NCBI RefSeq assembly: GCF_000336955.1
Contig: NZ_AOLI01000004.1
Location: 65,305 to 105,836, forward strand
Length of the DNA: 40,532 nucleotides
Direction: 5' to 3'
Origin: Haloferax larsenii JCM 13917
GTDB taxonomy: Archaea > Halobacteriota > Halobacteria > Halobacteriales > Haloferacaceae
Notes under the pieces: generated by a model
Seen by the model: only the letters and a program-made list of their open reading frames with translations
Told to the model about the DNA's origin: nothing
The model's database searches: none
Part shown: in pieces, positions 90 to 31,645 of the stretch
Position numbering within the stretch: the stretch's first letter is position 1
How the letters are laid out: each line of letters starts with the position of its first letter
Program-made: the position numbers and the translations under genes

Positions 90-2603
90 TCAGAAGCCGA
101 CGAGGAGGCTGGCGAACTGATCGAGTCGGTCGTCTAGCTGGTCCCCATCGTAGATCGTCGCTTCCCGCTCGTAATATGCGGCGAGTTCTGAGGCATCAGC
201 TGATAGCTTTCCTGTCTGAGTGTCAGTGGCGATCGTGAGAGCACAGATTGGGGCGGGGGATGCTCGGATCTGTTCGATGACGTCGTCGACGCTACTGGGC
301 TCTCCGTCGGTCACGGCGACTATGAGCGGTTCGTCGCGGTGGTCCTCTACGAACTGACTTGCAAGTTTGAGAGCGTCTGCCAACGGCGTGCCCCCGCCAC
401 AGTCCGTGTCCAGTAGCGTCGCCTGGATGTGTCGAGTCTCGACTGAGAACGGCTTTACGAGTCGGGCTTGGCTGTCGATGAAATCGACTATCGCGACATC
501 GATCCCCAGCCCTTCGGCGGCGACAGCGAACCGCGCTAGCGCCTTCGTTGCGACCTCGATCTTCGGGGGGTCGCCGTTCCGCATTGAGCCAGACCGGTCG
601 AGAACCAGCACTAGTGCGTATCGTTTCTCGCGCCCCGGCGTGTCGACCTTGCAGACCCGAGGGTCACCAATCAAAAGCCGATGTCCTGCAGTGGTATCGT
701 AGCTGCCGGCGGTCAAGCCTCGTCGGACACCACGTTGTCGGTCGAGACGGAGCTGTTTCTCGAGCGTGCCAGCAACCTGAGCAGCACCGTCTTCGATGTC
801 AGCCCACACGCCTGGTGGTGCGAGGTCGTCATTGACTGGGACGATCTCCAATTCGTCGAGCTGGCCTGGGCCCCCAGCAGTGCCGCCGGCTGCTTGATCG
901 TCTGAATTATCTCGGTCGAGTCGGCGGGCGAGGCCCTCCAGTTCGCGCTCTAGGGCGTCGGTGTCGATGCCCTCCCGATCTGCTTCGTCGTGAGCCGCTG
1001 TCCAGTCCGCTTCGAGTGCCCCTTTGTAGGCATCTTCCTCGTCAGCGGGATTCCGGTCGAGTGCCTCCGCGTGCGCTGGGACGGGGTCGGCAGTCGAGTC
1101 TATCTCCTCGTGGGGTGAGGGACTCGTAACCGGTGGCTCTCTTCCGTTATGATCCTGTTCCAGACCTTCTCGGGAGCCGGTTGTCTCTCTCGTTTCGCGG
1201 TCGTTCTGAGAAGCGTCGGCAGCGTCGAAGTCTCCGATGGTCGACTGACGTGCAGCAATAGAATCGTCATCCCTCTTCTCCTCCGCTGGGGACTGTCCAC
1301 GCTGCGGGGAATCGAGGTGTGATCCAGGTTGCTCAATGGTGCGAGCGAGTGCCCGCGCTCTCGTGTCTGTGGGGTTCGAGGTCTGCGACGGCTGGTCTTC
1401 ATCGCCGTCGGTCGGGCTTGGTGTCTCGTCGGGGCCGGTAGCTGACGTATCGGTGCCATGAGAACCAGGGGCCTGAGGAGACGGTGGTGCTTGGAGCTCC
1501 TCGTCGAATGAATCCGGAGTAATCGAGGGCTGGCTGAGGACGTCCTGGAATGGATCGTCAGTTGCGCTCCTGTCGAGTTGCGGGTATTCGTCGGTTCCGG
1601 AAGATTCAGATTCTGAGGAGGGATTGGAGTCTACATCAGATTCCTCAGACTCGCCCTGATCTGGGGACTGTGTTGATCCTTCGGAGCGCTCCTCTAGGAG
1701 TGGGAAAATTGCTGACTGCCACGTCTCGACGACCAATTGGGCTCGCCGTACAGATGCCGTCTTGTCGTGGCTGTGGGTGATATCGTCTGGTTCTGCACTC
1801 CGGATTTCGAGGGCATCCCGCGCTAACGCTTGGAGTGACTCCTGAACAGTGTCGAATCCCGAGGCATCCGTCTCCGACGCGAAGAGTATACGCTCATCAT
1901 CTTCGTCGAGAAGAACCTCTGTGATACCCGTCGGAAAGATTGCCCACTCGTAGAGGGCGCTCGTCACTGCATCCCAGAACGAGAAGAGGACTTGCTCGTC
2001 GTCAGGGATATCATCGGGAACCTGCGAGTGGATTCTGCGGGTGAGTTCGAGGCGTATCTCGGCGTTGTCGCTGAAGTTTGCTCCCTCGATCGCCTCCTGT
2101 TCGATGGCACCGTCCTCGATGATATTGACGAGGTCGTGAACCTGCTGGCGATAGTCGGAATCAATCTCGGATTCGAGGAGTTCTGCGATGGGGCCGATGG
2201 CTGTTTTGAGAATATGGAGTAGTTCGTGAAAGGCGAGACCGAACTGGTGGGCGTGGTCGGCTGTCAGCTGATCGTTCACCGGAATCCGGTCTATCGGTGC
2301 TGGTTCCGTCGTCACTAGAATGAGGAATTCAGCGTCGACGCTTTCGAGTAACTGTGCGGCCTGCTGCCGTTCAAAATCGGTTGCATCACTTCTTGCGAGC
2401 GCATCGGGTTCTGCAGGGAGGACCGCCGCGGTCTTGACGGCTGGCGTAAGAACGACTTCTACGTCGACACCTGAAGGCAGATGCCCGCAGATGAACGCCC
2501 GGAGCCTGTCGGCCCTACTAGCCGAGGTGCGAACGCGAGAGGCGGTATCGGGTGTGACCCTCTCTAATTGAAGTATTGTATCGGCTGAATGAGTATCGGA
2601 CAT
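90..2603 (-). CDS. VWA-domain protein with an N-terminal HELLH zincin-like motif
   Basis: An 837-residue protein, started at the ATG at 2603 because that codon lies 41 bp downstream of a TATA box; a longer frame from 2759 overlaps the upstream gene and has an un-halophilic basic leader. An HELLH motif (126-130) followed by an IIEDGAIE segment with Glu163 resembles zincin metallopeptidases. A long, very acidic Ser/Asp/Glu-rich linker (about 300-600) follows. The C-terminal von Willebrand A domain (about 663-837) has a complete metal-ion site: DRSGS (669-673), a Thr near 739 in GGGTP, and Asp near 766 in VTDGE. VWA proteins of this layout usually act with a MoxR/CobS-type AAA+ ATPase, and one is encoded immediately upstream. 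CobT-like chelatase subunits and DUF2201-type metallopeptidase/VWA proteins are the nearest families I can suggest. The substrate is unknown. Confidence 0.85.
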   Translation of the reverse strand: MSDTHSADTILQLERVTPDTASRVRTSASRADRLRAFICGHLPSGVDVEVVLTPAVKTAAVLPAEPDALARSDATDFERQQAAQLLESVDAEFLILVTTEPAPIDRIPVNDQLTADHAHQFGLAFHELLHILKTAIGPIAELLESEIDSDYRQQVHDLVNIIEDGAIEQEAIEGANFSDNAEIRLELTRRIHSQVPDDIPDDEQVLFSFWDAVTSALYEWAIFPTGITEVLLDEDDERILFASETDASGFDTVQESLQALARDALEIRSAEPDDITHSHDKTASVRRAQLVVETWQSAIFPLLEERSEGSTQSPDQGESEESDVDSNPSSESESSGTDEYPQLDRSATDDPFQDVLSQPSITPDSFDEELQAPPSPQAPGSHGTDTSATGPDETPSPTDGDEDQPSQTSNPTDTRARALARTIEQPGSHLDSPQRGQSPAEEKRDDDSIAARQSTIGDFDAADASQNDRETRETTGSREGLEQDHNGREPPVTSPSPHEEIDSTADPVPAHAEALDRNPADEEDAYKGALEADWTAAHDEADREGIDTDALERELEGLARRLDRDNSDDQAAGGTAGGPGQLDELEIVPVNDDLAPPGVWADIEDGAAQVAGTLEKQLRLDRQRGVRRGLTAGSYDTTAGHRLLIGDPRVCKVDTPGREKRYALVLVLDRSGSMRNGDPPKIEVATKALARFAVAAEGLGIDVAIVDFIDSQARLVKPFSVETRHIQATLLDTDCGGGTPLADALKLASQFVEDHRDEPLIVAVTDGEPSSVDDVIEQIRASPAPICALTIATDTQTGKLSADASELAAYYEREATIYDGDQLDDRLDQFASLLVGF

Positions 2604-2630
2604 ACGAATGCACGAGGGGCGCTCCCTCGA

Positions 2631-2649
2631 TCCCTTTGGGATGTTAAAC
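2631..2649 (-). promoter_or_regulatory. TATA box plus inverted repeat before the VWA gene
   Basis: Coding strand: GTTTAA (2644-2649), then the inverted repeat TCCC-TTT-GGGA (2631-2641), 28-38 bp before the ATG. The repeat lies where a bound protein would block the initiation complex. The same layout occurs before the AAA+, DUF932-like, PCNA, TFB-operon and RPA genes. Confidence 0.55.
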
Positions 2650-2692
2650 TGAGACGGACGAAAAATAGCGGACAACACTGTTTCACAGGGAA

Positions 2693-4303
2693 TTACAGAT
2701 AGTCGTTCAGTGTTTCGTAGGCATCCTCTGGATACTGATTCGGCTCGGCGACCGCCCACACCTCGTTCTTCACCGCTGCCTTCGGTGAGGCGCCGTCTTC
2801 GATGTGCTCACAGAGAATCGTCAGGTTCCGAGTCGAGAGCGTTGGCCAGCTCTCATTCCGCCGGGTCTGATGAGCAAACTGGACGATCTTCCTGAGCGTC
2901 CCGCGATCCACGACTTCGTGACTGGTATTCACCTGTGCATCCAGCGTGACGACCTCTTCCTCGACGTCCTGAATGTAGGGCTGCTCTAGCGCTCGGAACC
3001 GGCCACGAGTGGCCGAGTTCATCGGCTCGGAATCACGGTACTCCCTGGTCGGCGGGTTCATCGTAATCACAATTCGCGCAGACGGATGAGGTTCGACCAA
3101 CTCACCGTGGGCCTTCACGAGGAGTTTTCCCTCATTGAGCAGGCGGTGTAGAGACATCGCGGCGCCGGCTCGCATCACTGGAAACTCATTGAGCACCAGC
3201 ACCGACCCGTTCAGAAGCGCTTGCTTTGCGGGACCGTTCCGCGGTGCAATTAGCCCGTCCTCAGTGGGGGTGAGCGGTCCGAAGAGATCCTCCGTGTGGG
3301 TTGCCTCGTCACAGTCTACCGAGACGTAGCCCCGATTCGTCCGGTGACACAGGTACTTGACCAGATAGTTCTTCCCGGAGCCTCGAGGGCCAACAATCCG
3401 AACTGGAACCAGCCCACGAGCGAGTTTCTTCGCGAGGAGTTCGTCGAGCGGAAGTTGAAGCCGTGGTTCGGTCGGCACTGCTGGCGGGACGACGTCGCCC
3501 GCTTCGTCGACTGGGAGGGCGTCATCACCGGCGTCAGGATGTGTCGCTGCCTTCGGTACGTCAGGATGGTCAGGGTTATCGAGGATGTGGAGGCCTGTTG
3601 GGACAGGATCCTGTGCATTCCGCCCAATATCGGACACGTACTGTACGTCGACGGCATCAGGCGATAAGCCATCCGTGCGGTAGCGTGGTTCCCCTACGGG
3701 TTCGTTGGCAGTCGTAATGTCGAGAACTCGAGCGACACCGTGCCTCCCAGTTTCATCAAGGCGTTGGGAGTACCGGGCGTCGGCAGCTCGCGAAAGCCAC
3801 ACACCGACCGGAACGTGCCGAGGAGCGGCCTGAATAATCGCTTCTGCTCGGCTCTCTGTTAGCGTGCCAGTCAGATTCGCAAGCTCAGCGACTTCCGCGT
3901 CGACTAGCTCGGTGAACGTCGTGTAGCCTGCGTTTCTGAGTGCAGTCGCAATGCTTTCGGTGACGACATCGAGAATTTCGAAATCGTCACCCGCAGACGC
4001 GCCAGCGGGACCACCGAACGCTTCCGTAATCACGGGCGGCTCTGGACCCTGTGGAGAAACGCCGACGATTGTCGTGCTCCCACCAGACCCCCGGTCGAGC
4101 GTGAACGTTCCATCCGCTGCTCCAGCATCGAGGAGGTCGGCGGCCTCTTGCTCACCGATATCGACGTAATCACAGACTCGAAGCGTAACGCGTTCGACCG
4201 GGACCGTCCCACCCTCGCGCTTGAGGAGGCGATGCACCAGGTGCGAAAGGACGACGAGCGGTTCTGGCGAGTCGATCGTCGAGTCGGGTTCTGATGAAGA
4301 CAT
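2693..4303 (-). CDS. MoxR/CobS-type AAA+ ATPase with a helix-hairpin-helix
   Basis: A 536-residue protein. The first 100 residues look like a winged-helix or helical segment. A helix-hairpin-helix resembling the Rad51 N-terminal type follows (about 110-152). The AAA_5 core spans about 290-500, with P-loop GPRGSGKN (315-322), Walker B LVLNEF (Asn382-Glu383), sensor 1 Asn in ITMNPP (about 425), and Arg-finger candidates around 443-445. The P-loop ends in Asn rather than Thr/Ser, and the Walker B Asp is Asn while the catalytic Glu stays. It precedes the VWA gene by 89 bp in the same direction; AAA+/VWA pairs remodel or metallate client proteins in known systems. The ATG at 4303 lies about 50 bp after a TATA box. 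The fold is near certain, the client unknown. Confidence 0.9.
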   Translation of the reverse strand: MSSSEPDSTIDSPEPLVVLSHLVHRLLKREGGTVPVERVTLRVCDYVDIGEQEAADLLDAGAADGTFTLDRGSGGSTTIVGVSPQGPEPPVITEAFGGPAGASAGDDFEILDVVTESIATALRNAGYTTFTELVDAEVAELANLTGTLTESRAEAIIQAAPRHVPVGVWLSRAADARYSQRLDETGRHGVARVLDITTANEPVGEPRYRTDGLSPDAVDVQYVSDIGRNAQDPVPTGLHILDNPDHPDVPKAATHPDAGDDALPVDEAGDVVPPAVPTEPRLQLPLDELLAKKLARGLVPVRIVGPRGSGKNYLVKYLCHRTNRGYVSVDCDEATHTEDLFGPLTPTEDGLIAPRNGPAKQALLNGSVLVLNEFPVMRAGAAMSLHRLLNEGKLLVKAHGELVEPHPSARIVITMNPPTREYRDSEPMNSATRGRFRALEQPYIQDVEEEVVTLDAQVNTSHEVVDRGTLRKIVQFAHQTRRNESWPTLSTRNLTILCEHIEDGASPKAAVKNEVWAVAEPNQYPEDAYETLNDYL

Positions 4304-4339
4304 AGTTCGTATGCGAGACTCTGTTAGGAGCCCCGTCGC

Positions 4340-4359
4340 CCGCTTTCGGACTGATAAAT
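4340..4359 (-). promoter_or_regulatory. TATA box plus inverted repeat before the AAA+ gene
   Basis: Coding strand ATTTATC (4353-4359) is followed by the dyad CCG-CTTT-CGG (4340-4349, + strand). Spacing matches the VWA, PCNA and RPA promoters. The element lies just before the DUF932-like gene's stop (4367), so the AAA+ gene can be transcribed independently. Confidence 0.5.
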
Positions 4360-4366
4360 ACCAGCT

Positions 4367-5863
4367 TCAAGACGAGCCTTCAATGTCGTCGAGGCGGTGC
4401 TGAACCCGGTCGTGCAGTCGCTGAGCGGCTCCGTCAGTGAGATTCGCTTCTGTATCAACCTCGATGCCAGGAATATCGACAACGTCTTCGAGCGCGTCGC
4501 TGAGCGTCTGCTGGTTGGCTGGCAGGACACGCTCTTCGGGTTCGTCAGTTTGCCGGTCGTGTTCCTTCATCGCCAGTTGAATCATCATCGCTGGTTTTCG
4601 AAGCAGTTCGCCAGCGACCTCGAGATACTCTTGATGGGTATTCGATGCCCAGGACCCCTCGTACTCATCGAGGAGTGCGATCAACAGGGAGAGCTGGAGG
4701 TTGTAAACGGTTGGTCGCGACGATGGAGACGCCAGCGTCGTGGCTCGGTCCGCAGCGGCCTCGGCGTACCTGTTGGCGACGCCCCAGTAGCGGTAGCAGG
4801 TAGCCGTATCGAATGGAAGCTCGTCGAAGTCGTAGGCGATGGCCCGCGTTCTTCGGATCGCCAAATCGACTCTCACCAGGCGGTCGGCGATGTCGTCATA
4901 GATCGCCTTCCACCACTCGTTGATCGGAACTCTGTTGTTCGCCCGTTCGTGGTCGGCGTCGGTGGCCCGACCGTAGTGACGGCGAGTGTACCGCTTGCCC
5001 GTGTCGGGGACGATAGTCCCGGTCTCGGGGAAGTAGAGGATCGGTTTCGCCCACAGTGTTTGTGTCCCCCGGAAATCGTAGCCGGTCTCGAATCCCCCAT
5101 AGACGACGAGATCCGATTCGGTTGTCCCAGAGACGCTGGTGACGCCGTCGATATCCTCCTCTATCTCAGGCTCTTCACTTGCTGTGACGGTGTGTTCGAG
5201 ACCGGGACAGACGACGAACATCTTGAGGAGTCCACCCCAGTCGCGGTAGCTTGCCCAGCCGAACGCGCCGGTTTCTCCTCGTTGCTGGAGTGCTCCCACG
5301 ATTGGTAGGTACGCCTCTTGCGGATTGATGATAGAGTATCGATCCGAGGCGATCTGCCAGCGGAACTTGACATCGAAGCCCAGCGCACACAGCGCCTTGC
5401 GACGTTCGTCGACGATATCCTTGTGATCTCGGACACGAACCAACGGGTTGGACGACGCGTCCGTGGCGATCTCCGAGAGGGACTGACCGGTCGCCGTCTC
5501 CAGCGTATCGATATCCAGACCCTCGACGTTGCGGAGAGCTTCGACATCGAGGGTCCCGTCGACACCGACGAACTCGTTTGTGGCCCAGAGTTCACCTGAA
5601 CTCGCTTGAGGGAGGACGCTAAGAACGTCTTTCAGGGAACGAGGATTCTGATCGAGACACCCCGTTTCTGGTGAAACATCGTCTGGATACTCCGCGTCGT
5701 CTGCCGACGTCAACCCTGCAAATGCGTGCGTTGCTTCCTGATCCAGGAGGTCGAGGACTGACATGGATGCAACAACTGATTGATGGTTATCCTCGCCCGA
5801 ACGGGAATTCGACGTGGAGTTCTCTCGCTTGCGGCTCGCTTCTGACTGTGTATGTGTCGACAT
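4367..5863 (-). CDS. DUF932-like phage/plasmid protein
   Basis: A 498-residue protein with a polar Ser/Asn-rich start and a probable globular core from about residue 100 to 470. The stretches around DRYSIINPQEAYLP, GGFETGYDFRG and RRHYGRA resemble the order of conserved blocks in DUF932 proteins of phages and plasmids (a 'sDrYsvv' block, an 'NSyDGs' block, then a 'kHt' block). The match is by eye and distant. DUF932 proteins commonly sit in replication or early regions of mobile elements but have no settled activity. It is followed after 63 bp by the AAA+ and VWA genes, so the three may form one functional group. A well-placed TATA box and dyad lie about 60-85 bp before the ATG. Confidence 0.75.
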   Translation of the reverse strand: MSTHTQSEASRKRENSTSNSRSGEDNHQSVVASMSVLDLLDQEATHAFAGLTSADDAEYPDDVSPETGCLDQNPRSLKDVLSVLPQASSGELWATNEFVGVDGTLDVEALRNVEGLDIDTLETATGQSLSEIATDASSNPLVRVRDHKDIVDERRKALCALGFDVKFRWQIASDRYSIINPQEAYLPIVGALQQRGETGAFGWASYRDWGGLLKMFVVCPGLEHTVTASEEPEIEEDIDGVTSVSGTTESDLVVYGGFETGYDFRGTQTLWAKPILYFPETGTIVPDTGKRYTRRHYGRATDADHERANNRVPINEWWKAIYDDIADRLVRVDLAIRRTRAIAYDFDELPFDTATCYRYWGVANRYAEAAADRATTLASPSSRPTVYNLQLSLLIALLDEYEGSWASNTHQEYLEVAGELLRKPAMMIQLAMKEHDRQTDEPEERVLPANQQTLSDALEDVVDIPGIEVDTEANLTDGAAQRLHDRVQHRLDDIEGSS

Positions 5864-5921: not shown

Positions 5922-5947
5922 CCTCACCCGATTGAGGATGGTAAAAT
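5922..5947 (-). promoter_or_regulatory. TATA box plus inverted repeat before the DUF932-like gene
   Basis: Coding strand ATTTTAC (5941-5947) is followed after 3 bp by the dyad CCTCA-N6-TGAGG (5922-5937). The loop is longer than in the sister promoters, but the position relative to the TATA box is the same. Confidence 0.5.
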
Positions 5948-5971
5948 GGGGCGGCGCTGTCTCATCCGGCA

Positions 5972-6835
5972 CTACCCCGAAGCGGATGCCGATGGATCTC
6001 CTGTCGTACCTGTGTGCTCTTCATCTTCACCAGTATCCTCACTCAGGAGCGTCTCTTGATCGTCGTCGTAGCGTGGGATATATTCTTCACCGCCGAACCA
6101 GCGAATGAGCGTCGGCCGAAGACGTCGAATGCTTTCCTCAGTCGATTCGCCGACGTGGTCGACAGTCCTGAGCGTCGTGGCGTAGCAGGCCCAAGCCGCG
6201 AACGCGCCCATCGTCTCGAACTCATCAGCGATGGCCCGCTTGGCGGCAGCGGAAGTCAGCCGACCATGTGTCGAGAGCCACTGCTTCGACAGTGATTCGG
6301 AAGCAGGGTCACGATTCTCCAATCGGATTTCCTGGAGTCGATGCAAGTTCCCCCTGGTGTCTCCCTTCTTCCAGAGGACCTCGTCGTATCGTCGGACCAG
6401 AGCAAGTTCGTCAGCGTAAGTGATCGAGTCCAGATCGACCGTTTCGATGTCGATGTCATCCGGTTGTGGAGCGGTGTTGTCCGGATAGTCCCTGTGAAGG
6501 TACTGTTCACGAAAGCTCGACTCGCGGAGGTCCTGAAGACGAATCGACCACTCATCACCGCTCAGTTCCCGCCTGACGAAGTTCTCTGCGAACAGGTGAT
6601 AGTCATCGATTGCAACTTCGACCCCGAGAGCGGAAGCGAGCAGGGCGATAGCGAGTTGGCAAGCGCGTTCTGGAGCCGCGTCCGGACCCCAATCGAACCC
6701 GCCCGGTGACACCGAATGTACCATCAGGTGTTTGTCGAGGAGATCTTCGCCGGCGTAGACGAGACAGCCCCCAAGTGTGCGTTCTCCTCGATATCGCCGT
6801 GCTCGGTACTTCGACTGTGAGTAGCTAGTATTCAT
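5972..6835 (-). CDS. DUF6166-domain protein
   Basis: A 287-residue protein. The first ~85 residues carry the pattern of DUF6166, a small domain frequent in haloarchaea: YRGERTLGG, a segment around HSVSPGGFDWGP, then ERACQLAIALLA. The rest is charged and mostly helical, without a motif I recognise. It starts 27 bp after the PCNA stop codon on the same strand with no obvious promoter, so it is probably co-transcribed with the clamp gene. DUF6166 has no established function. Its coupling to PCNA suggests a part in DNA handling, which is inference only. Confidence 0.8.
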   Translation of the reverse strand: MNTSYSQSKYRARRYRGERTLGGCLVYAGEDLLDKHLMVHSVSPGGFDWGPDAAPERACQLAIALLASALGVEVAIDDYHLFAENFVRRELSGDEWSIRLQDLRESSFREQYLHRDYPDNTAPQPDDIDIETVDLDSITYADELALVRRYDEVLWKKGDTRGNLHRLQEIRLENRDPASESLSKQWLSTHGRLTSAAAKRAIADEFETMGAFAAWACYATTLRTVDHVGESTEESIRRLRPTLIRWFGGEEYIPRYDDDQETLLSEDTGEDEEHTGTTGDPSASASG

Positions 6836-6862: not shown

Positions 6863-7969
6863 TTACGTCTCGATACGGGGAGCCAGCATCCGAGTCATCG
6901 ACCCTGCATCATCGTCGAGGTCGTACGAGAGCATGATGGGGAACTCACTCCCGAAGTCAACTGTGACGCTAGCCCCCTTGGGGATTGTTCGGACAATCTT
7001 TTTCATGTAGTCGAGGCTGAACAGCGACGAAGCTTCAGCGAACGTGGCCTGGTCGAGCTTCTCCTCATCGAGTTGGAAGTCGACAGTGTCGGTATCACCT
7101 TCTGCCTCGATTCTGAGGACCTCTTCGTCTGCGTCCATCCGGAATCCGACGTGATCGGCAACGAGGTCTGAAGCTTTGACTCCTTGCTGGAGGACGTCGC
7201 GGTCGAGCGTAGCGCTCGCTGGGAGTTCCAGCTCAGGAAGCGTCGGCTCTGCTCTGATAGTCGATGGATCGAGGCAAGCCATTCGGAACTCGATGCCGTC
7301 GACGAAGACGACCAGCTTGCGTGTCTCTCTATCGAGGCTGAACTGGACGAGATCGTCTTTCTTTGCGAGGTTCACGGGATCGGCGAAGCGGTCCAGGTCG
7401 AGACCGAGGACACCCGGAGTAGCATCGTACGACTCGAATGCCGAAGCATTCAGAGTGAGATCGTCCATCGCGACGTTGGCGGGATCGACTGCACGGACGC
7501 GGATACCGGATTCGTCGATCTTGAATCGGGCTTCGTCGACGTTTGCGCGAAGTGCCTTGAGGATAGTCTTGAGAGGACTCGCCTGGATGGTTGCTCGAAA
7601 CGTCGACGGCGGCTCTGAGGGTATCTCATCCGTCGCTTCCTCTCCATCAGTATCGATATCTGCATCTGGTCCTTCCTCTGTCCCGGATGCGAGATCTCGG
7701 GCTTGCTCCAGCCAGTCTACAGCCTGTTCCACGCTGACGTTTGCAAACTCCGCAATTGTCTCGGAGTCAGCGGCTTCGAGAGCCTCGATCGTTGAGATTC
7801 CTTGTTCGTGCAGACGGGCCGCTTGTTCCGTATCGAGACCAGAGATGTCGACGACATCCGGTAGTTGTTCCGAGGGTTCCGGAACAGTCTCGGACCGTTC
7901 AGATGCATCTGAACGGTTGTTCTCAGGCTGTTCGTTGTCAGAGCGGTCTGTGGGTGTTTCTATACTCAT
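6863..7969 (-). CDS. pcn: PCNA sliding clamp with N-terminal helix-hairpin-helix extension
   Basis: A 368-residue protein in three parts. An acidic tail (1-35) is followed by a helix-hairpin-helix region (about 38-94, GLDTEQAARLHEQGIST then IAEFANVSVEQA). An acidic linker leads to a complete PCNA (about 123-368). The clamp shows the DESGIRVRAVDPANVAMDD block of domain 1, the interdomain loop around CLDPSTIRAEP and a normal C-terminus near LAPRIET; about 246 residues is the usual archaeal length. Cellular haloarchaeal PCNA has no such N-terminal domain. The clamp presumably tethers polymerase and repair proteins to DNA, and the added domain may give DNA or partner binding. It has its own TATA-plus-dyad promoter and about 65 bp of leader, and the DUF6166 gene follows it. 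Confidence 0.93.
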   Translation of the reverse strand: MSIETPTDRSDNEQPENNRSDASERSETVPEPSEQLPDVVDISGLDTEQAARLHEQGISTIEALEAADSETIAEFANVSVEQAVDWLEQARDLASGTEEGPDADIDTDGEEATDEIPSEPPSTFRATIQASPLKTILKALRANVDEARFKIDESGIRVRAVDPANVAMDDLTLNASAFESYDATPGVLGLDLDRFADPVNLAKKDDLVQFSLDRETRKLVVFVDGIEFRMACLDPSTIRAEPTLPELELPASATLDRDVLQQGVKASDLVADHVGFRMDADEEVLRIEAEGDTDTVDFQLDEEKLDQATFAEASSLFSLDYMKKIVRTIPKGASVTVDFGSEFPIMLSYDLDDDAGSMTRMLAPRIET

Positions 7970-8044
7970 AAGCTTCTATGGCGCGATAGAGCGAAAGCAC
8001 GAGTTCAGACGGACAGTCGTGGAGTCAACTCGCCTTTCCCTCAG

Positions 8045-8064
8045 TCTCTTTAGAGATGATAAAT
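8045..8064 (-). promoter_or_regulatory. TATA box plus inverted repeat before the PCNA gene
   Basis: Coding strand ATTTATC (8058-8064), then the dyad TCTC-TTTA-GAGA (8045-8056, + strand). The TATA box is itself bracketed by GAGAT (8053-8057) and ATCTC (8063-8067), so two nested symmetries are present. It is a clear member of the shared promoter type. Confidence 0.6.
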
Positions 8065-8128
8065 CTCGACTCAGGAGTACCGGCCGAGATACGGCTCACG
8101 ACGCGAGAAGTACAACGAGCATCTGGAG

Positions 8129-8998
8129 TTACTGAAGTCGGACAGTGGTCGCCTCGCGCTCTAGAATCTGCTTTTCGATTAAGCGAACAATCGCATCGTC
8201 AACAGCATCCGCCTGGTCGTCGGAAAGCGCTCGCACGTTCGAGAGGACGCGGTCTCGAATGTTCTCGATATCGGTTAGTCCATCATCGACCGCACCCAGA
8301 ACGGTATACTCGACTTCGAACTCTGTCGCGAAATCTGAGATACGAGACGTGAACGAATTCGGAAGGCCCGACAGCGAATTGACCGCCATCTCGATGGTGA
8401 ACAGCGGATGGGAACGGTCGCGGATGTGTCGTGCTTCAGTCGAACCAGTGTTGAACGGCCGCTGTTCGTCGATTTCGGTCAGAATGGATTCGTAATCGAG
8501 GCCACGCTGGGCGTACTTCCGCATGTCCTCGATGTCGCGCCGGCGGCCACTCGCCAGATCACCACCCGAGACCGCTTTCAACAGGAACATATCCTCGTCC
8601 GAAAGGATGAACGCTGTCGCGTGATCGCCGGCCCAGAATTCCTCGGCCCGGTCATGCATTCGCTCGGTGATCCATACCTTCCCGACGACCTGCCGCTCGA
8701 AGAGATCAATCTGAAACCCGCGGTCTTCGTGATGGAGTTCGACAGTTTTTCCGACCCCTTCGAACGACTCTGTCGGCTCGTCAACCACCGTGAACCCTTG
8801 TGCCTGAAGCGCCTGGTAGACGTGCTCGAACTCGGAAACGACGCCCAGCGCAAGGTCGATGTCCTCGGTCTGATCTTTCAGCCCTCGAACCGTCATCGCC
8901 GAGCCGCCGAGGAGATACACGTCTACGGGTTCCGAGAGCCAGCTGTCGAACTCTTCGAGGAACGCTCTGATCGCATCTCCACCTTTGAACACAGTCAT
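8129..8998 (-). CDS. Nucleotidyltransferase, DUF6036/AbiEii-like
   Basis: A 289-residue protein. The N-terminal half has a polymerase-beta-type nucleotidyltransferase signature: GGS (31-33) in YLLGGSAMTVRG and the metal pair DID (46-48) in TEDIDLAL, with a third acidic candidate in FQIDLFE. This matches DUF6036-type proteins and recalls AbiEii toxins, which transfer nucleotides to tRNA. The C-terminal third (about 200-289) looks helical. It overlaps the upstream winged-helix gene by 4 bp (ATGA), typical of regulator-toxin pairs. A TATA/dyad element inside the upstream gene could give it a second, leaderless promoter. A toxin role is inferred; a housekeeping transferase is the alternative. Confidence 0.8.
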   Translation of the reverse strand: MTVFKGGDAIRAFLEEFDSWLSEPVDVYLLGGSAMTVRGLKDQTEDIDLALGVVSEFEHVYQALQAQGFTVVDEPTESFEGVGKTVELHHEDRGFQIDLFERQVVGKVWITERMHDRAEEFWAGDHATAFILSDEDMFLLKAVSGGDLASGRRRDIEDMRKYAQRGLDYESILTEIDEQRPFNTGSTEARHIRDRSHPLFTIEMAVNSLSGLPNSFTSRISDFATEFEVEYTVLGAVDDGLTDIENIRDRVLSNVRALSDDQADAVDDAIVRLIEKQILEREATTVRLQ

Positions 8999-9945
8999 GA
9001 GACACCGTATTGCTCTTTGAGAGCGATAAATTCTGATTCACTCGGGAGGAAGACCGGGAGATCCTCGGATATCTCGAACTCTCCGTGAAGGGGTCGGTAC
9101 ATCGCGGCCACTGCGGTCTCCAAGTCGTACCACCTTGCCGTGTCTTTGAGGGTATCTTGGTCGATGTCCAGCTTCTCGATCAACAGCATCGAATAACTGA
9201 CGCGGCGAGAGCCACTATCGAGGACGAGGGTGTGGCACACCACCTCCGATGGTGTGAGATCCCCGTCGGGGGCGTACCAGAATGCGGGTTCGCCAGCGAG
9301 GAAGAACTGCAAGCCGTACTCCTGGAATCGTGCGAGTCCAGTCACCCGCCAGTCAGCAGCCGACTCTAGTGCGGTCGTATCCTCGGACGTCTGGACGCGA
9401 ACAAGCGCCCGCTTCGGGTCGCACCACTCGACAGTCGCACTCGGAGCAAGTTCTCGAGCTCGCGAGCGGTGTTCGTGGGTCACCACTTCTCGTGCGAACG
9501 TCAGCAGTGGCGAGAGGTCATCAGTCAAGGCGTATTCCGGCCCAGAAGGCGACAGCATCGCACGGTGCTTGAGCGGCGACAACGCATTGTGGACGCCCTG
9601 TCGGGTGATGTCGAGTCGCTCTGCGATCTCGGTCGCTCGACGTGGTTCGTCGAGGTACCAGCACACCCGCAGTGTTGCTGGCGAAAGGATCTCGGTCCAA
9701 TCGACATGACCCAGCTTCGAACGGAGGTCTCGGTACGACTCAACGATTGGATGGTCCGTTACCCGGACACGGCGCCGGTTCTTCGACCCGCGAGATTCAG
9801 TGAGCAACCCGTCTTCGAGCAACTCATCGAGGACGTCGTAGATGTGGTCCTGCGAATACTCGGTTTCGGTCGCGAGTTCGTGTGGAGTCGCTTCACGGCC
9901 AGCGCTAAGCGCGTCTAGCAGTGCGAGGCTGGCCTTGGTCAGCAT
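8995..9945 (-). CDS. Winged-helix regulator paired with the nucleotidyltransferase (AbiEi-like)
   Basis: A 316-residue protein started at the ATG at 9945; the open frame extends to 10272, but its first 109 residues are un-halophilic and overlap the neighbouring zinc-protein gene. Two winged-helix-like segments are visible: residues about 5-60 (LALLDALSAGREATPHELA ... VLDELLEDGLL) and about 95-145 (CWYLDEPRRATEIAERL ... VHNALSPL). The C-terminal half is mixed alpha/beta. A TATA box (coding CATATTTATA, 9971-9980) lies about 30 bp before the ATG, so the mRNA is probably leaderless. The gene is coupled to the nucleotidyltransferase by an ATGA overlap. It probably represses its own operon and neutralises or controls the partner, as AbiEi does, but the family link is by layout rather than clear sequence identity. 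Confidence 0.78.
   Translation of the reverse strand: MLTKASLALLDALSAGREATPHELATETEYSQDHIYDVLDELLEDGLLTESRGSKNRRRVRVTDHPIVESYRDLRSKLGHVDWTEILSPATLRVCWYLDEPRRATEIAERLDITRQGVHNALSPLKHRAMLSPSGPEYALTDDLSPLLTFAREVVTHEHRSRARELAPSATVEWCDPKRALVRVQTSEDTTALESAADWRVTGLARFQEYGLQFFLAGEPAFWYAPDGDLTPSEVVCHTLVLDSGSRRVSYSMLLIEKLDIDQDTLKDTARWYDLETAVAAMYRPLHGEFEISEDLPVFLPSESEFIALKEQYGVS
9012..9031 (-). promoter_or_regulatory. Putative internal promoter for the nucleotidyltransferase gene
   Basis: Within the 3' end of the regulator gene lies GCTC-TTTGA-GAGC (9012-9024), directly abutting the TATA box ATTTATC (9025-9031), about 30 bp before the ATG at 8998. The layout copies the shared promoter type although the DNA is also coding, so chance cannot be excluded. 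Confidence 0.4.
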
Positions 9946-10042
9946 CTCTGTAAATAATAGAGCCGATTCGTATAAATATGTTTCTGGATTTCTGTTTACA
10001 GACTGCTTGTGTGACGTCTGCCCACCTGCGGACGAAGTCCTG

Positions 10043-10285
10043 CTACATCGAAACCGGTGGAAGCCAGTCACAGGACGGACAGAACGCTTCGTATACAGCC
10101 AGTGTTTCGTCGAACTCCCAATCTCCGTCGTCATGGAATAGTACACCCGCTCGAACAATAGCATGAACCGCACCGTGACCACAGTTGGGACATTCGTCAC
10201 CAGGAGCCCATCCCGCCCGCTCGAAATCGATCGTCCACTCTGCGTCAGTGACGACGGCCGACGACCGTTCACCGCAAGAAGTCAT
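10043..10285 (-). CDS. Small double-CxxC zinc protein downstream of TFB
   Basis: An 80-residue protein. Two cysteine pairs, CPNC and CPSC (near the C-terminus in FCPSCDW), make a probable zinc-binding site flanking a segment that includes VLFHDDGDWEFDETLAVY. The ATG at 10285 overlaps the TFB stop codon as ATGA, so translation is likely coupled. I chose this start over the frame's earlier Met because of the overlap. I do not recognise a named family. The position suggests a partner or modulator of the TFB, which is inference. Confidence 0.72.
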   Translation of the reverse strand: MTSCGERSSAVVTDAEWTIDFERAGWAPGDECPNCGHGAVHAIVRAGVLFHDDGDWEFDETLAVYEAFCPSCDWLPPVSM

Positions 10286-11274
10286 CCGTGTACCTCCAAT
10301 CCAGACTCCTCTTCGTGTTCGAGCAACGATTGGAGTTTCTTCCATTGCTCACGGAGCGTCATAGCGGAGACACTCGCGAGCTCGGCGAGACTCGTTTGGG
10401 TGACGTTCTCGTCAGCCTCACGAGCAGCCTCGTAGATGCAGGCAGCGGCAACGCCGGTTGGTCGACAGCCGTTCCCGAGCCCGACTTCGGACGCTTCTCG
10501 GGCCAACCCCAGGGCGCGTTGGCGCACTTCTCGTGAGAGATCGAGATCCGATGCGAATCGTGGGACATACTGAACGGGAGCCATCGGAACTGCCGGGAGA
10601 TTCAGTTCGTGATTCAACACGCTGTACGCGTTGCTGACCCGCTCTCTGGAGACAGTCGACACCTCTCCGACCTCGTCGATTGTCCGAGGGAGTCCCGAAC
10701 ATCGACAGGCTGCATACACGCCGGCAGCCGCGATTGCTTCAATCGAGCGACCACGGATGAGGTCCTCGTTCGCAGCAGTCCGATAGAGGGCGCACGCTTG
10801 CGTACAGATGCTCTCGGGAAGGTCGAGCGCACCGACGATTCGCCGGACTTCCGAGAGCCCATGTGCAAGGTTCTGCTCAGCTTTCCCTTCGAATCGAGCT
10901 TGGCGGTCCCATCGCCGAAGCCGGTGCAGTTTCCGGCGTTTCGCGGCCGGAAGCTGTTGCCCTCGTGCATCGCGATACCGACCGATCTCTGCAGAGATGC
11001 CCCAGTCGTGCCGGGCATTCGTCACTGGCCCACCAACGCGACGTCGATCTTCGGCGTCGTATGGCGTCCATTCAGGCCCGTAGTCGATACAATCCTCGTC
11101 GACGACGAGCCCACACTCAGGACAGTACCTCTCAGTTCCGTCTCGTCTGAGCTTGACCTCAGAACACTCGGGGCACTGGTCGATCGTAGAAGGGAGGCGT
11201 TCGGGAGTCTCAACACCGGTCCTTTCAGGCTGTTCAGTGTGCTTCGTCGCGACGCTGGATGAATCTATAGACAT
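10282..11274 (-). CDS. tfb: Transcription initiation factor TFB
   Basis: A 330-residue archaeal TFIIB homologue. The N-terminal zinc ribbon has Cys34, Cys37, Cys51 and Cys54 (CPEC ... CPEC), followed by the B-finger/linker region (DYGPEWTPYDAEDRRRVGGP) and two cyclin-like repeats (about 120-215 and 225-315). It should bridge TBP-bound promoters and RNA polymerase. Haloarchaea carry several TFBs used for specialised gene sets, and an element-borne copy could direct polymerase to element promoters. It starts 29 bp after the upstream gene and overlaps the zinc-protein gene by 4 bp, so it is third in a four-gene operon that begins at 12416. All core motifs look intact. Confidence 0.95.
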   Translation of the reverse strand: MSIDSSSVATKHTEQPERTGVETPERLPSTIDQCPECSEVKLRRDGTERYCPECGLVVDEDCIDYGPEWTPYDAEDRRRVGGPVTNARHDWGISAEIGRYRDARGQQLPAAKRRKLHRLRRWDRQARFEGKAEQNLAHGLSEVRRIVGALDLPESICTQACALYRTAANEDLIRGRSIEAIAAAGVYAACRCSGLPRTIDEVGEVSTVSRERVSNAYSVLNHELNLPAVPMAPVQYVPRFASDLDLSREVRQRALGLAREASEVGLGNGCRPTGVAAACIYEAAREADENVTQTSLAELASVSAMTLREQWKKLQSLLEHEEESGLEVHG

Positions 11275-19104: not shown

Positions 19105-19198
19105 CGTTGTTCTCCGAGGAGGAACTGGAGGAAGCGTTCGAGACACACCGATTCGCTGTCAGGGTATCTTTTCGTCGCTCCCTCTCTGATTCTCCTCA

Positions 19199-19218
19199 TC
19201 CCCTTGGGAATGATAAAT
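19199..19218 (-). promoter_or_regulatory. TATA box plus inverted repeat before the RPA gene
   Basis: Coding strand ATTTATC (19212-19218), then the dyad TCCC-CTT-GGGA (19199-19209), nearly identical to the VWA promoter dyad TCCC-TTT-GGGA. The TATA box is also bracketed by TGGGA and TCCCA. The leader to the ATG at 19104 is about 80 bp. Confidence 0.6.
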
Positions 19219-19401
19219 CCCAGAATCAGTCGCCAGCAGGCCACGAAATCTGAGAGCAGTCCGAGAGAATCAGCCTTATGCTCCCCCAACAAATGATATA
19301 GCATTCCGGCTGTGCTACATGCCACACGCAAATCTGGTACATTGGATCTTGCTGTCCGGGGGAACCATTACCGCGTAGCGACTATTTTGTACGACTTACC
19401 T

Positions 19402-19984: not shown

Positions 19985-22900
19985 TCAGGCCTCGCTCAAG
20001 CGTGAAAGCAGTTCGTCGGTCCTGTCTTTGGCCTCTTTTCGAGAGATACCCTTGTCGACGTAACGCTCGATGACGCGGGCACGCATCTGGCCATGATCCA
20101 GCGTCTTCCGGGATTCGATGTACCCGTTCTCTTCAAGATGCGTCTCCAGCTCGTTCGCCTTGCTGCTGTAGAACCCGCTTATTTCGTTGTGCAAGGCCTC
20201 AACGATCTGCCTGCCATCGCCATTGACTGACTCAGCAAGGTCACTAACCTCGTCGATGAAGTTGCTGCTCACGGCGCCAGAGGCTTCGAGAACCTCTCGA
20301 TCGACGGGTTCGCCACGACCGACCTTCCAGGCGTCGACGAACTCGCTCAGCGCCGCAGCATTCTCCTCTGCTATCTTTATCTGGTCGGAATCAACTGAGG
20401 AGAGGTCGCCGTTGCCCCACTGGAGCAGGTTGTTCAGCTGTCCCCAGTGCTCGATTCCAAGCTCCAAGAGTTGATGGAGAGTTTCGACATCATCGACCAC
20501 GTACCACAGGTGCGCTGTCCCAACGCCATGGTGCGGATTGAACAAGTCCACCGCGAGTTCGTCCCCATACGAGGCATGGTCGTGACTGTCGGGACTGGGT
20601 GCTTTCGGAGTGAACGATTCGACAGATTCCAGATCGGGAATGTGGACCGAATCGTCGACATCGCGAACCGTTGCAAGGTCGACAATCTCGTGGTCAACAC
20701 CGTTCGTGCTCTCCAGCGCAACAGTCCACTTCGCCACTTCGTCGCCCTGTGCGGTGAAATAGAAGACCTGCCGACCGTTCCGAGCCAGTTCAATCGTCGA
20801 CTCGATGATGGTCTTCGCCCTGCGGTCGTCCGTGTTGGCGAGTGTCTCGTCGAGGAGAAGTGGAATCCGAACGCCCTGTTCCTGCTGTTCGACGAAAGCA
20901 ATTCGGACGGCGAGCAAGACCTGGACCCGAGTACCGCTCGAAAGCTCGTCGAGCGCGAGTCCCTTCTGTTTGGATTCGTCGAACGCACGGAACTCGGCTT
21001 CATTCTCGTCGAAGTCCAACCGATACCGGCCACGAGTGATCGTCGCCAGGATTTCTCGAGCACGCTCGAAGACGTCAGGGCGGCTCGTCTCCATCGTCGC
21101 CTCCTGAACGTGATCCACCAGTACGTCGCCGACCATCGCAGCACAGTCGTCCTCGAGTTGGTCTTTCAGATTATCTAGCGCCCTATCGCGCTCCGCAAGC
21201 GCCGTTTCAACTTGATCGTCGGACTTCGCCTGCCTGATCTCCGCCTTGATATCGGCAATCCGTGACTGCAGGTCTTCGAAATCTTCGGCAGTTCGTTCCG
21301 CCTCACGGAGCCCTTCTCTGAGGTCAGCAATCTCTTGCTCCTTGAGATCTGGTTCAAAGCCCGGGTAGCTTTCGAGTTCTTCGGCCTCCGTACTTGCCCG
21401 GATGTCCGCCTCTCGTACGTCCTCCGCTGCCGACTCGTATGCTTCGACCTGGTCACAGAGTTCCTCCAACCGATCGTGGTCATCGGAGTCGAGATTCAGC
21501 TCCACAAAGATTTCGTTGCGTTCGGCTTCCAACGCATCTATTTTCTCGGTCGCTTCCTGAATCGTCTCGGTAGCTTGGTCGAGGTCCCTTTGTGCAGCTT
21601 CGCGTTGCTGTTCGCGGTTCTCGAGGTCCCGGATGGACTCGGTCGCCTCGCCGGAACTCTGGACGTCGTCGTAGCCATAGGGATCGAGTTTCGATTGGAG
21701 CTCTTCACGGGCGCTCTCGATCTGCTCGTCGACGATCTCGATGTTCTCTCGAATCCCTTCAACCTCGTCGTGGGCTTCCTGCCAGTCGAGCACTCGCTTG
21801 GAGATTACGGCGAGTTCGACATCGGACGCATCTGGCGCGGCGCCCAACTGGTCTTGGAGTTTGGCACGCGTTTCCTCCAGATTCTGCTCTTTCTGTTCGA
21901 GCGTGTCTGAGTCCGTCGCCAGGCTATCGCGCCATTCGGACCGTCGCTCGGCCAGTTTGTGCGCTGCGATTGCGTCGTACAGTCCGATCAGACGGGACCG
22001 GACCTCGTCTTCGGTCCACGCAGTCGGCAGGGTCAGACCGGTTTTCTCGAACGACTCGCGATGCGGTTCTCGTGAACCACCTCCGTCTTGGGACTGTGAG
22101 CGAGCGCGCAGCCCATACCAGAAGATACCAGCGGCGACGACCAGGATGGAGAACAACAGTGGATGTACCAGCAGACCGAGCGCGATTCCCGTTGAGGCGA
22201 GAGAGACAGCCGAGAACACAGCGATTCGGAATGCCTCTGAACCGTCGTTTGACTCCGTAGCAACGGACGCGGCCAGCCACTCCTCCAGCGACTGACTCGC
22301 ACGCTGGAGCGTGGGTAGATCGGGGTCAGGGTGCTCCCCGTCCTCCAGTAGTCGCTGGACGGCCTCCCGGGTTTCACGCTCGGACTGGAGTTCTTCGGCC
22401 TCTCGGGCAAACTTAGAGACAGTCTTCCACGTGACGGGCTCCAGGTCAACGAGGTCCTCGGTATCGACCTCCAGAGGAATGTCCTCTCGTGCAGTTTCTC
22501 GCTGCCGTTTGGCGTCAGCCAGGTCTCCCTGGAGATCACGTTTCCGGTCCTCCGCAGAATTGAGGTCATCGCGAAGTTCTTTCAGATGGTCGATACGGCC
22601 TGTCGGCAGGCCCTCTTCAGGAAGGTCGGCCTCATCGAGCCGTTCCTGAGCATCCGTTTTCGTTTCCTCGGCCCCGTCTTTTTTGTCGGTCCATTCGTCG
22701 ATGTCATCTTCGAGGGATCGAACACGCCCGATTTCGTCCCCGTCGATCAGGTCTACGATATCGGGGAACTCGTCGAGTCTCGATTCAGCCTGCTCCAGTT
22801 TGTTCCTCGCCTGTGCGTAGTCGATTGCCTGCTCGAGCAGTTCGGAGCGCTCCTGTGCTTGACGGGCTGCTTCCAGTTCACTACGTAAGCGGGAGAGTTC

Positions 22901-23458
22901 GTTCTGCTCTTGGCGCAGTTCGGATACGTCGTTCCGCGCCTCACGTAACTCCTGAATCGCTCCCTTGGCGTTCTGGACGACGTTCCTATTGGCCCGACTC
23001 GGGGAATCCGAATATCCGAGCTCGTCGTATGCTGCGGAGAGATCGTAGCCACCAGCCGATTCTCGCTCGATTATCTCGGCGAACGATTCATTGTTATTGT
23101 CCCGCTGGAGCAGGTCGTGGAGGGAGAGACGGTAGCGGTCGCGTTGATCGGCCGGCGGGAGGCTCGGACCGTTCGCCTCCTGGCCGTCACGCTGGTAGCT
23201 CGTGCGCCCATTGTCGACTTCGACTCGCCAGGCTTCACCATTCAGTGAGAGCTGCCCCACGAGGGACGCACGTTCGTCGGCGGTCTCGGGCCAGCAAAGC
23301 CATTCGAGCGACTCAGCGAGCGTCGTTTTTCCTGCCGCGTTCGGTCCATGAACGACATTGATTCCAGAGCACAGGTCGTCGACCGAGAAGCCACCGGTCT
23401 CGAATCCAGGAGCCTGGACGATCTGGATTTCCTCGAAGCAAATCGGGTCCCTGGTCAC
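19985..23458 (-). CDS. YhaN/Rad50-like SMC-type ATPase with membrane hairpin
   Basis: A 1157-residue ABC/SMC-like ATPase. The P-loop is GPNAAGKTT (38-46). Coiled coil runs about 165-400 and 500-790. The signature motif LSSG is at 839-842 and Walker B LLLDE at 867-871. A strongly hydrophobic stretch at about 411-450 can form a transmembrane hairpin in the middle of the coil, as in YhaN-type proteins, and there is no zinc-hook CxxC as in true Rad50. Residues about 910-1157 are an extra helical domain beyond the usual ATPase end. It overlaps the YhaO-like nuclease gene by 4 bp. The pair probably processes DNA ends at the membrane, possibly during transfer or against incoming DNA. Confidence 0.9.
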   Translation of the reverse strand: MTRDPICFEEIQIVQAPGFETGGFSVDDLCSGINVVHGPNAAGKTTLAESLEWLCWPETADERASLVGQLSLNGEAWRVEVDNGRTSYQRDGQEANGPSLPPADQRDRYRLSLHDLLQRDNNNESFAEIIERESAGGYDLSAAYDELGYSDSPSRANRNVVQNAKGAIQELREARNDVSELRQEQNELSRLRSELEAARQAQERSELLEQAIDYAQARNKLEQAESRLDEFPDIVDLIDGDEIGRVRSLEDDIDEWTDKKDGAEETKTDAQERLDEADLPEEGLPTGRIDHLKELRDDLNSAEDRKRDLQGDLADAKRQRETAREDIPLEVDTEDLVDLEPVTWKTVSKFAREAEELQSERETREAVQRLLEDGEHPDPDLPTLQRASQSLEEWLAASVATESNDGSEAFRIAVFSAVSLASTGIALGLLVHPLLFSILVVAAGIFWYGLRARSQSQDGGGSREPHRESFEKTGLTLPTAWTEDEVRSRLIGLYDAIAAHKLAERRSEWRDSLATDSDTLEQKEQNLEETRAKLQDQLGAAPDASDVELAVISKRVLDWQEAHDEVEGIRENIEIVDEQIESAREELQSKLDPYGYDDVQSSGEATESIRDLENREQQREAAQRDLDQATETIQEATEKIDALEAERNEIFVELNLDSDDHDRLEELCDQVEAYESAAEDVREADIRASTEAEELESYPGFEPDLKEQEIADLREGLREAERTAEDFEDLQSRIADIKAEIRQAKSDDQVETALAERDRALDNLKDQLEDDCAAMVGDVLVDHVQEATMETSRPDVFERAREILATITRGRYRLDFDENEAEFRAFDESKQKGLALDELSSGTRVQVLLAVRIAFVEQQEQGVRIPLLLDETLANTDDRRAKTIIESTIELARNGRQVFYFTAQGDEVAKWTVALESTNGVDHEIVDLATVRDVDDSVHIPDLESVESFTPKAPSPDSHDHASYGDELAVDLFNPHHGVGTAHLWYVVDDVETLHQLLELGIEHWGQLNNLLQWGNGDLSSVDSDQIKIAEENAAALSEFVDAWKVGRGEPVDREVLEASGAVSSNFIDEVSDLAESVNGDGRQIVEALHNEISGFYSSKANELETHLEENGYIESRKTLDHGQMRARVIERYVDKGISRKEAKDRTDELLSRLSEA

Positions 23459-24756: not shown

Positions 24757-24785
24757 GAGTGCGACTAGACAGTGAGATAGAAGCA

Positions 24786-24810
24786 CAAGTCACGGATAAA
24801 TAAATGTCAC
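24786..24810 (-). promoter_or_regulatory. TATA region of the nuclease/ATPase operon
   Basis: Coding strand ATTTATTTATC lies about 37-47 bp before the ATG at 24756. It is flanked by two direct copies of GTGAC. It lacks the dyad seen in the RPA/PCNA-type promoters. Confidence 0.45.
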
Positions 24811-24902
24811 CCATTCCTGAACTACTGGGAGTCGATAGATATCCAGATCTACGTAACGCCAGCTGTTGAAACAGGGTGCAGCAGTTTGTTATTGGCGGCG
24901 TC

Positions 24903-31212: not shown

Positions 31213-31614
31213 TCACCCTGCGATGAACTCGAGCAGGGAGACGAGTGCGCCGAGCCCGAAGTACGCGATGACCATTGCACCGCCACCGAGCGTGAGTTTC
31301 ATTCCCGTCTCTGACCGCTGGGAGTTCGTGCGGGCGGTGAGCCAGACGATCAGGCCCAGAACCAGCACAGTGAGGCCGGCGTACTGGAGCGTCGTGTAGA
31401 CGACGTCGTAGAGATTGGTGAGGATCGTCTCCCAGCCGGCGACAGAACCACCGGACCCACCCGTGGGGCCGCTGGATTGTGCAGCTGCAGGGCTAACGAA
31501 AAGCATCAGTGAGAAGAATGCGGTGACGAGAAGGCTCTCGAAGTTGGGGACTCGCCGGAAGCGGCGGAGGCTGTTCGTGTCGGGGTCGGAGTCTGTGGTG
31601 TGCTGGTTCGTCAT
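31213..31614 (-). CDS. VirB2-like pilin candidate
   Basis: A 133-residue protein started at the ATG at 31614, which has a TATA box 28 bp upstream. An N-terminal signal-like helix (about 27-46, LLVTAFFSLMLFVSPAAAQ) ends in an Ala-rich cleavage-type site. Two transmembrane helices follow (about 67-90 and 101-126), joined by a short basic loop TNSQRS. This is the size and topology of VirB2/TrbC pilins, which are cleaved and assembled into conjugative pili. It lies next to the VirB4/HerA-like gene, and related hairpins occur in the 166- and 144-residue proteins nearby. Assignment is by topology and context. Confidence 0.75.
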   Translation of the reverse strand: MTNQHTTDSDPDTNSLRRFRRVPNFESLLVTAFFSLMLFVSPAAAQSSGPTGGSGGSVAGWETILTNLYDVVYTTLQYAGLTVLVLGLIVWLTARTNSQRSETGMKLTLGGGAMVIAYFGLGALVSLLEFIAG

Positions 31615-31639
31615 TGCACACCAGCCGTAAGCTGGAAGG

Positions 31640-31645
31640 TATAAT
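31640..31645 (-). promoter_or_regulatory. TATA box of the pilin-like gene
   Basis: Coding strand ATTATA, centred 28 bp before the ATG at 31614; the message is probably leaderless. It lies 14 bp downstream of the proximal TGCG-N5-CGCA site. A dyad CCAGC-N5-GCTGG (31621-31635) overlaps the presumed start region. Confidence 0.6.

Follow-up and report, generated by a model that had tools for sequence, protein, structure and literature searches.

A zincin-VWA protein, an AAA+ ATPase and a DUF932-like protein as a conserved module of haloarchaeal plasmids

What might a haloarchaeal mobile element do with a protein that joins a protease-like motif to a VWA domain and is encoded next to an AAA+ ATPase? 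The question is raised by three adjoining genes in a 40,532-nucleotide stretch of Haloferax larsenii JCM 13917 (contig NZ_AOLI01000004.1, positions 65,305 to 105,836, hereafter the window), in which the original prediction, made from the DNA letters alone, saw a possible new module of ATP-driven proteolysis or remodelling. Comparison with homologues indicates that the module is real and conserved, that its genes have a shared promoter type and that it is a plasmid-borne variant of a pair already described; what it does is something we infer.

Three genes in a fixed order

The genes and the features on which the argument rests are as follows (window coordinates).

90..2603, minus strand: zincin-VWA protein of 837 aa, with a zincin-like domain at about residues 20-310, an acidic low-complexity linker and a C-terminal VWA domain with a metal ion-dependent adhesion site (MIDAS)
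2214..2228, minus strand: HELLH motif, residues 126-130, the predicted metal ligands and catalytic Glu (H126, E127 and H130 invariant)
2115..2117, minus strand: Glu163 of NIIED, the predicted third metal ligand (N160, E163 and D164 invariant)
204..614, minus strand: VWA domain, residues 664-800, with a complete MIDAS (DRSGS, GGTPL, TDG; VWA_2 E 1.3e-13)
2693..4303, minus strand: MoxR/CbbQ/CobS-type AAA+ ATPase of 536 aa (AAA_5 E 8e-20; Walker A GPRGSGKN; Walker B LVLNEF, with Asn for Asp)
3824..3964, minus strand: helix-hairpin-helix region of the AAA+ protein, residues 114-160 (E 1.8e-5, slightly short of the Pfam cut-off)
4367..5863, minus strand: third gene, 498 aa, of the phrog_13083 family (function unknown in PHROG), a distant relative of DUF932

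The conserved start of the VWA gene is the ATG at 2603 and not the GTG at 2759 of the open reading frame list (90-2759), and the residue numbers of the original prediction agree with the ATG start.

In a neighbourhood survey of 170 genomes of the host's family, a VWA gene was found downstream of the AAA+ gene, on the same strand and within 12 kb, at 39 of 43 AAA+ loci; the AAA+ gene was likewise placed relative to the DUF932-like gene at 27 of the 31 DUF932-like loci. In order of transcription the block reads PCNA, DUF6166 protein, DUF932-like, AAA+ and VWA, all on the minus strand in the window, and this order is repeated over many replicons with variable insertions between the genes. On a family of haloarchaeal plasmids the three module genes stay together and keep their order. 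Beside the distant haloarchaeal and viral pairs of AAA+ and VWA genes, no third gene was detected. Two neighbours complete the block.

5972..6835, minus strand: DUF6166 protein, an upstream neighbour frequently conserved with the module
6863..7969, minus strand: PCNA-like sliding clamp with an N-terminal helix-hairpin-helix, at the upstream end of the conserved block

Both the clamp (6863-7969) and the AAA+ protein (2693-4303) have a helix-hairpin-helix outside their core domain. Other genes were seen in the gaps between module genes. At one locus (L034, 2777-7420) a weak RAMP-superfamily match (E 0.0014) adjoins a diverged copy of the DUF932-like C-terminus, and on the Natrinema plasmid described below (L002, 11104-13907) TIGR02391 and M48 protease genes are inserted. 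Duplication by an integrase was considered for the diverged extra C-terminus copies and rejected on a DNA-level comparison of one locus, L034, where the copies have diverged too far for a recent duplication of an attachment site.

Conservation of the predicted active sites

Both predicted active sites of the VWA protein, whose union in a single chain had first drawn attention to it, are invariant. The MIDAS residues are conserved throughout the homologues compared, and the C-terminal VWA domain is the sole domain that Pfam recognises in the window protein. Towards the N-terminus, the pattern HExxH-x28/29-NxxED was present in 37 of 38 haloarchaeal and HVTV-1 proteins longer than 600 aa, the lone exception being a truncated copy; it is invariant in two alignments and kept in all homologues that span the domain. 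A separate, wider alignment brought together 14 sequences: proteins of haloarchaeal plasmids and chromosomes, of HVTV-1, of a cyanophage, of phages of Ochrobactrum, Gordonia and Roseobacter, of Escherichia phage Cyrano and of three bacterial plasmids (IncC, pQBR55 and pPGC22). Its mean column identity is 22%, and no more than six of its columns are invariant, namely H, E, H, N, E and D, with the HExxH residues at aligned columns H61, E62 and H65. Since these six columns are held while nearly all else varies, this is the pattern expected of an active metal site. The original prediction had staked its case on HELLH being conserved in homologues and on the three genes being found together elsewhere; the motif, with Glu163, proved conserved and the genes recur together, so that in both respects it stands.

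A zincin-like fold is also predicted for the domain. An AlphaFold2 model made with 21 homologues (pLDDT 87) places HELLH in a helix of residues 112-133 and Glu163 in a later helix, 149-173. Among the viral predicted structures of BFVD the model matched the HVTV-1 VWA protein (E 3e-8, TM 0.67), and the best rows were nearly all VWA/CobT phage proteins. Judged from the model, the N-terminal domain would resemble zincins weakly and the viral 'CobT/VWA' proteins clearly. When the zincin domain was searched as a profile against PDB sequences, nothing convincing emerged. A weak match to AcrIIA26 (PDB 9zq6_B, E 0.01), which may be chance, is confined to the NxxEDxxIE helix of the domain.

The neighbouring gene encodes an AAA+ ATPase, as had been proposed. 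By sequence it comes closest, among solved proteins, to midasin (8e-29), CbbQ (2.5e-19) and NorQ (1e-9), with solved CobS trailing at E 5e-4. The Walker-B Asp is replaced by Asn (NEF or NEV) in all plasmid-clade copies examined, whereas DE is kept in the Walker B of the distant haloarchaeal pairs and of HVTV-1.

The third protein had been called DUF932-like, and the name holds in a restricted sense. No Pfam, NCBIfam or PADLOC family matched it, the curated cut-off of DUF932 (PF06067) was not reached and direct profile comparison with DUF932 fails. Its relatives, at about 22-27% identity, are a family found on many haloarchaeal genomes and a Hardycor1 virus protein; that haloarchaeal family, in turn, matches haloarchaeal DUF932 (hhalign probability 84%, E 8e-6). 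Because the intermediates match and the direct comparison fails, 'DUF932-like' denotes a distant transitive relation and not membership. The structure model of this protein (pLDDT 65) is too poor for claims about its fold, and Foldseek found no significant match to it in the PDB. On the IncC plasmid pAR060302 a hypothetical gene lies between the AAA and ssb genes, and it has no Pfam match that would link it to DUF932.

The replicon and a shared promoter type

The window is the final 40.5 kb of a 105.8-kb contig. Comparison of the contig's ends revealed an identical 89 bp at both, an overlap from which the replicon is probably circular and complete. Among the relatives found, the closest is the circular 113.5-kb plasmid NZ_CP100447 of Natrinema caseinilyticum, to which about 36.8 kb of the window can be aligned. 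NZ_CP100447 carries an Orc1/Cdc6 gene, BREX-5 and McrBC, and no capsid, portal, terminase, tail or cobalamin gene is annotated on it. Several plasmid proteins have counterparts among PHROG families. The 25 of 43 such families listed for the plasmid include primase, helicase, clamp and exonuclease, and none of them is a capsid, portal, terminase or tail family. No virion genes were recognised.

The original prediction had also proposed one promoter type for the module genes, in common with PCNA and RPA, and this was confirmed. The VWA, AAA+, DUF932-like, PCNA and RPA genes have a common promoter type, laid out as TTTAYC, about 3 bases, a pyrimidine-rich arm, AA, a complementary purine-rich arm and GAGG. 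The pattern occurs at six sites on the contig against 0.8 expected and at eight on NZ_CP100447 against 0.7 expected (40 shuffles), counts that overstate independence because the pattern was picked after these upstream regions had been viewed. Sites or close variants precede these five genes and others; those of the window's VWA, AAA+ and DUF932-like genes are close variants, not perfect matches.

2624..2652, minus strand: promoter element of the VWA gene, GTTTAACATCCCAAAGGGATCGAGGG, found in the exact TTTAYC form in the closest relatives
4338..4362, minus strand: promoter element of the AAA+ gene, GTATTTATCAGTCCGAAAGCGGGCG
5922..5948, minus strand: promoter element of the DUF932-like gene, CATTTTACCATCCTCAATCGGGTGAGG, with an imperfect palindrome
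8030..8067, minus strand: promoter element of PCNA, ATTTATCATCTCTAAAGAGACTGAGG, a pattern match
19184..19221, minus strand: promoter element of the RPA/OB-fold gene, ATTTATCATTCCCAAGGGGATGAGG, a pattern match

Motif sites lie at window positions 8063, 9030, 12450 and 19217 (minus strand). The palindrome arms vary in sequence between sites yet stay complementary, which is odd for the site of a sequence-specific repressor. A plasmid-encoded TFB and an HVO_2833-type winged-helix regulator (window 8995-11274) are candidates for reading the shared promoter.

Elsewhere in the window (19985-26591), genes for Rad50-like (1157 aa) and Mre11-like (443 aa) proteins adjoin an NrS-1-type primase-polymerase, many of whose best relatives are on contigs that also bear AAA/VWA genes. 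Further genes with weak matches to DUF87/HerA (26840-30934), TrbC/VirB2 pilin (31213-31707) and Ig-like domains (36958-39384) possibly form a DNA-transfer or surface apparatus.

Known relatives and proposed function

The pair of a MoxR ATPase and a metallopeptidase-VWA protein is already known and is not a new kind of system. A MoxR AAA+ protein with a vWA protein bearing an N-terminal metallopeptidase has been described in group 2.2 jumbo phages (PMC7824862), and the likeness to the present pair, drawn from that description, lies in a MoxR-clade AAA+ gene adjoining the gene of a VWA protein whose N-terminal part is a metallopeptidase-type domain. The haloviral pairs of Druskaviridae and Saparoviridae have been called CobS/CobT and are thought to act with host CobN (PMC8651126). 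HVTV-1 gp57 shares HECGH...NAAED and a VWA domain, with a cobS-type AAA+ gene adjacent, and a cyanophage 'peptidase' next to cobS, an annotation judged mistaken in PMC8651126, has the same motifs; the protein of cyanophage S-ShM2 keeps an intact HEVGH...NVIED. Furthermore, relatives of the VWA protein occur on more than 1,000 bacterial plasmids, many of them conjugative. In plasmids of the IncC, pQBR55 and pPGC22 type these proteins carry HExxH...NxxED and a VWA domain; an AAA gene is nearby in IncC and pQBR55, and none is listed adjoining the VWA gene of pPGC22. The word 'new' in the original prediction must therefore be withdrawn for the pair.

Unlike the jumbo-phage pair, known by description, the present one is plasmid-borne, no virion gene being recognised on the plasmids, and is accompanied by PCNA and a conserved DUF932-like third gene; its AAA+ protein has a helix-hairpin-helix region and the Walker-B Asn. 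From viral cobST it differs in an identity below about 30% and in the annotation of the viral genes as cobalamin enzymes, and next to the viral pairs no third-gene homologue was detected. The bacterial plasmids have a DUF3150 gene instead of the DUF932-like one and Bet/exonuclease instead of PCNA. What is new is the haloarchaeal plasmid variant, in which the third gene is fixed, the Walker-B Asn is invariant and no virion genes were found, together with the recurrence of the pair beside clamp, SSB or recombinase genes. This recurrence was seen in a few examples: the pair or the VWA gene adjoins clamp and clamp loader genes in cyanophage S-ShM2 and Ochrobactrum phage OC, genes for SSB, RecT/Bet and a lambda-type exonuclease in pQBR55, pPGC22 and IncC, and the DNA polymerase III alpha gene in Escherichia phage Cyrano.

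We give an even chance to the reading that the module is a plasmid-borne, ATP-driven protein-remodelling machine, probably proteolytic, that acts on the replication and recombination proteins of its own element. The AAA+ protein would form a MoxR/CbbQ-type ring on which the VWA protein docks, its metal-dependent MIDAS gripping an acidic side chain that belongs either to the ring or to a client. Movement driven by ATP would then deliver the client to the zincin-like domain at the opposite end of the VWA protein; there, His126, His130 and Glu163 would coordinate a metal, presumably zinc, and Glu127 would activate water. The clients would most probably be proteins on the element's DNA in replication or recombination, such as the clamp, RPA, the primase-polymerase, repair proteins or the DUF932-like partner.

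Several observations weigh against this reading. Given the Asn in the Walker B of the plasmid clade, ATP hydrolysis is not guaranteed, and in some loci large insertions separate the module genes. Zincins are among the best VIA-align rows for the domain model (3e11, Z 5.1, rmsd 4.1, 100 aligned; 2ejq, Z 4.7; selecase, Z 4.4; ERAP2, 4.1; HtpX, 4.0), with unrelated folds interspersed and at Z values of about 5 or less, a range where chance is possible; Foldseek gave no significant match between the model and the PDB. In addition, the non-haloarchaeal neighbourhoods are a few examples chosen from search hits and not a systematic survey, and neighbourhood is no proof of substrate. Since phages and plasmids commonly carry replication genes, the role in replication is put forward as a proposal.

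The pair may alternatively be CobS/CobT cobaltochelatase subunits that work with host CobN to insert cobalt and so raise the supply of cobalamin, as proposed for the haloarchaeal tailed viruses of Druskaviridae and Saparoviridae (PMC8651126). The relation to CobT is real: the Pfam CobT model extends over the N-terminal domain in the closer relatives from phages and bacterial plasmids (Cyrano, E 6e-27; CRP-810, 2e-15; IncC, 5e-6; also pQBR55), bona fide CobS/CobT (PDB 9uka and related) likewise combine AAA+ with a VWA/MIDAS partner, the AAA+ protein matches solved CobS weakly and the host genome has a cobN-type gene, although on a different contig from the module. However, the window VWA protein is unlisted for Pfam CobT (PF06213), and the AAA+ protein for NCBIfam CobS (TIGR01650), at E up to 1, and the latter is far closer to midasin, CbbQ and NorQ. 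The relatives retain HExxH, which is absent from the readable part of solved CobT (9uka_G residues 25-107), a stretch where the alignment is not significant. The closest plasmid has no annotated cobalamin gene, and the pair's neighbours are replication and recombination genes. A cobaltochelatase is accordingly unlikely. The CobT-type protein of Cyrano (L140, 6001-8109) is annotated as 'dimethylbenzimidazole phosphoribosyltransferase', in which two unrelated cobT genes have probably been confused.

Remodelling of a client is what MoxR-type rings normally do together with their VWA partners; Rubisco, reductases or ribosomes are the clients of CbbQ/CbbO, NorQ/NorD, RavA/ViaA and midasin, which share with the present pair an AAA+ protein of the same clade and a VWA partner. 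Their VWA partners are not known to carry a zincin, and in the present pair a predicted protease domain is added. The module may only remodel, as a chaperone like CbbQ-CbbO, NorQ-NorD or RavA-ViaA whose zincin-like domain binds metal or peptide without cutting. The AAA+ protein is nearest in sequence to midasin, CbbQ and NorQ, all non-proteolytic, and the Walker-B change hints at altered ATP turnover. Against this, relatives with little else in common all keep the catalytic Glu of HExxH, which is unexpected for a dead enzyme. We place this possibility on a level with the cobaltochelatase.

More doubtful still is a virion or tail assembly chaperone with proteolytic maturation, in which case the plasmids would be viral relatives. 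It has in its favour the architecture of, and the proposal made for, the jumbo-phage pair (PMC7824862), the many relatives in tailed viruses, including six viral loci with AAA+/VWA pairs recovered with a broad alignment as query, and the PHROG matches of several plasmid proteins. Here it is unlikely, because no virion genes were recognised on the closest plasmid or among the 25 of 43 PHROG families listed, the plasmid-type VWA protein had no relative among the 2.9 million viral contigs of IMG/VR (two scans), and many conjugative plasmids carry relatives. Equally improbable is a conflict system for defence or counter-defence that cleaves host or invader proteins, akin to the ternary systems whose core is formed by vWA-MoxR pairs (PMC7159879): accessory genes in the module gaps, with the weak RAMP-family match, and BREX-5 and McrBC on the closest plasmid would fit it, but there was no relevant PADLOC match (no search aimed at VMAP was made), the genes hold a fixed place beside PCNA and not a patchy cargo position, and no effector domain was recognised in the conserved third protein, so the defence role in the original prediction found no support.

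To return to the proteolytic machine, a wider version of it would make the pair a general replication and recombination machine of archaeal and bacterial mobile elements, an ATP-powered protease for clearing or maturing clamps, SSB or recombinases on the DNA of the element. CobS/CobT would then be a relative, perhaps derived by loss of the zincin site, and viral and plasmid 'cobST' would have been misread as B12 genes. This generalisation is speculative and, on present evidence, rather unlikely to hold. Viral and plasmid cobS/cobT genes have been taken as auxiliary genes of vitamin B12 (PMC8651126; PMC12023590). Three observations argue for a job other than B12: the protease-like site is invariant, the pair has no cobalamin genes as neighbours on the closest plasmid, and clamp, SSB and recombinase genes recur next to it. 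If the pair is an ATP-driven protease of replication complexes, then phages, bacterial plasmids and archaeal plasmids would share a machine that has so far gone unrecognised.

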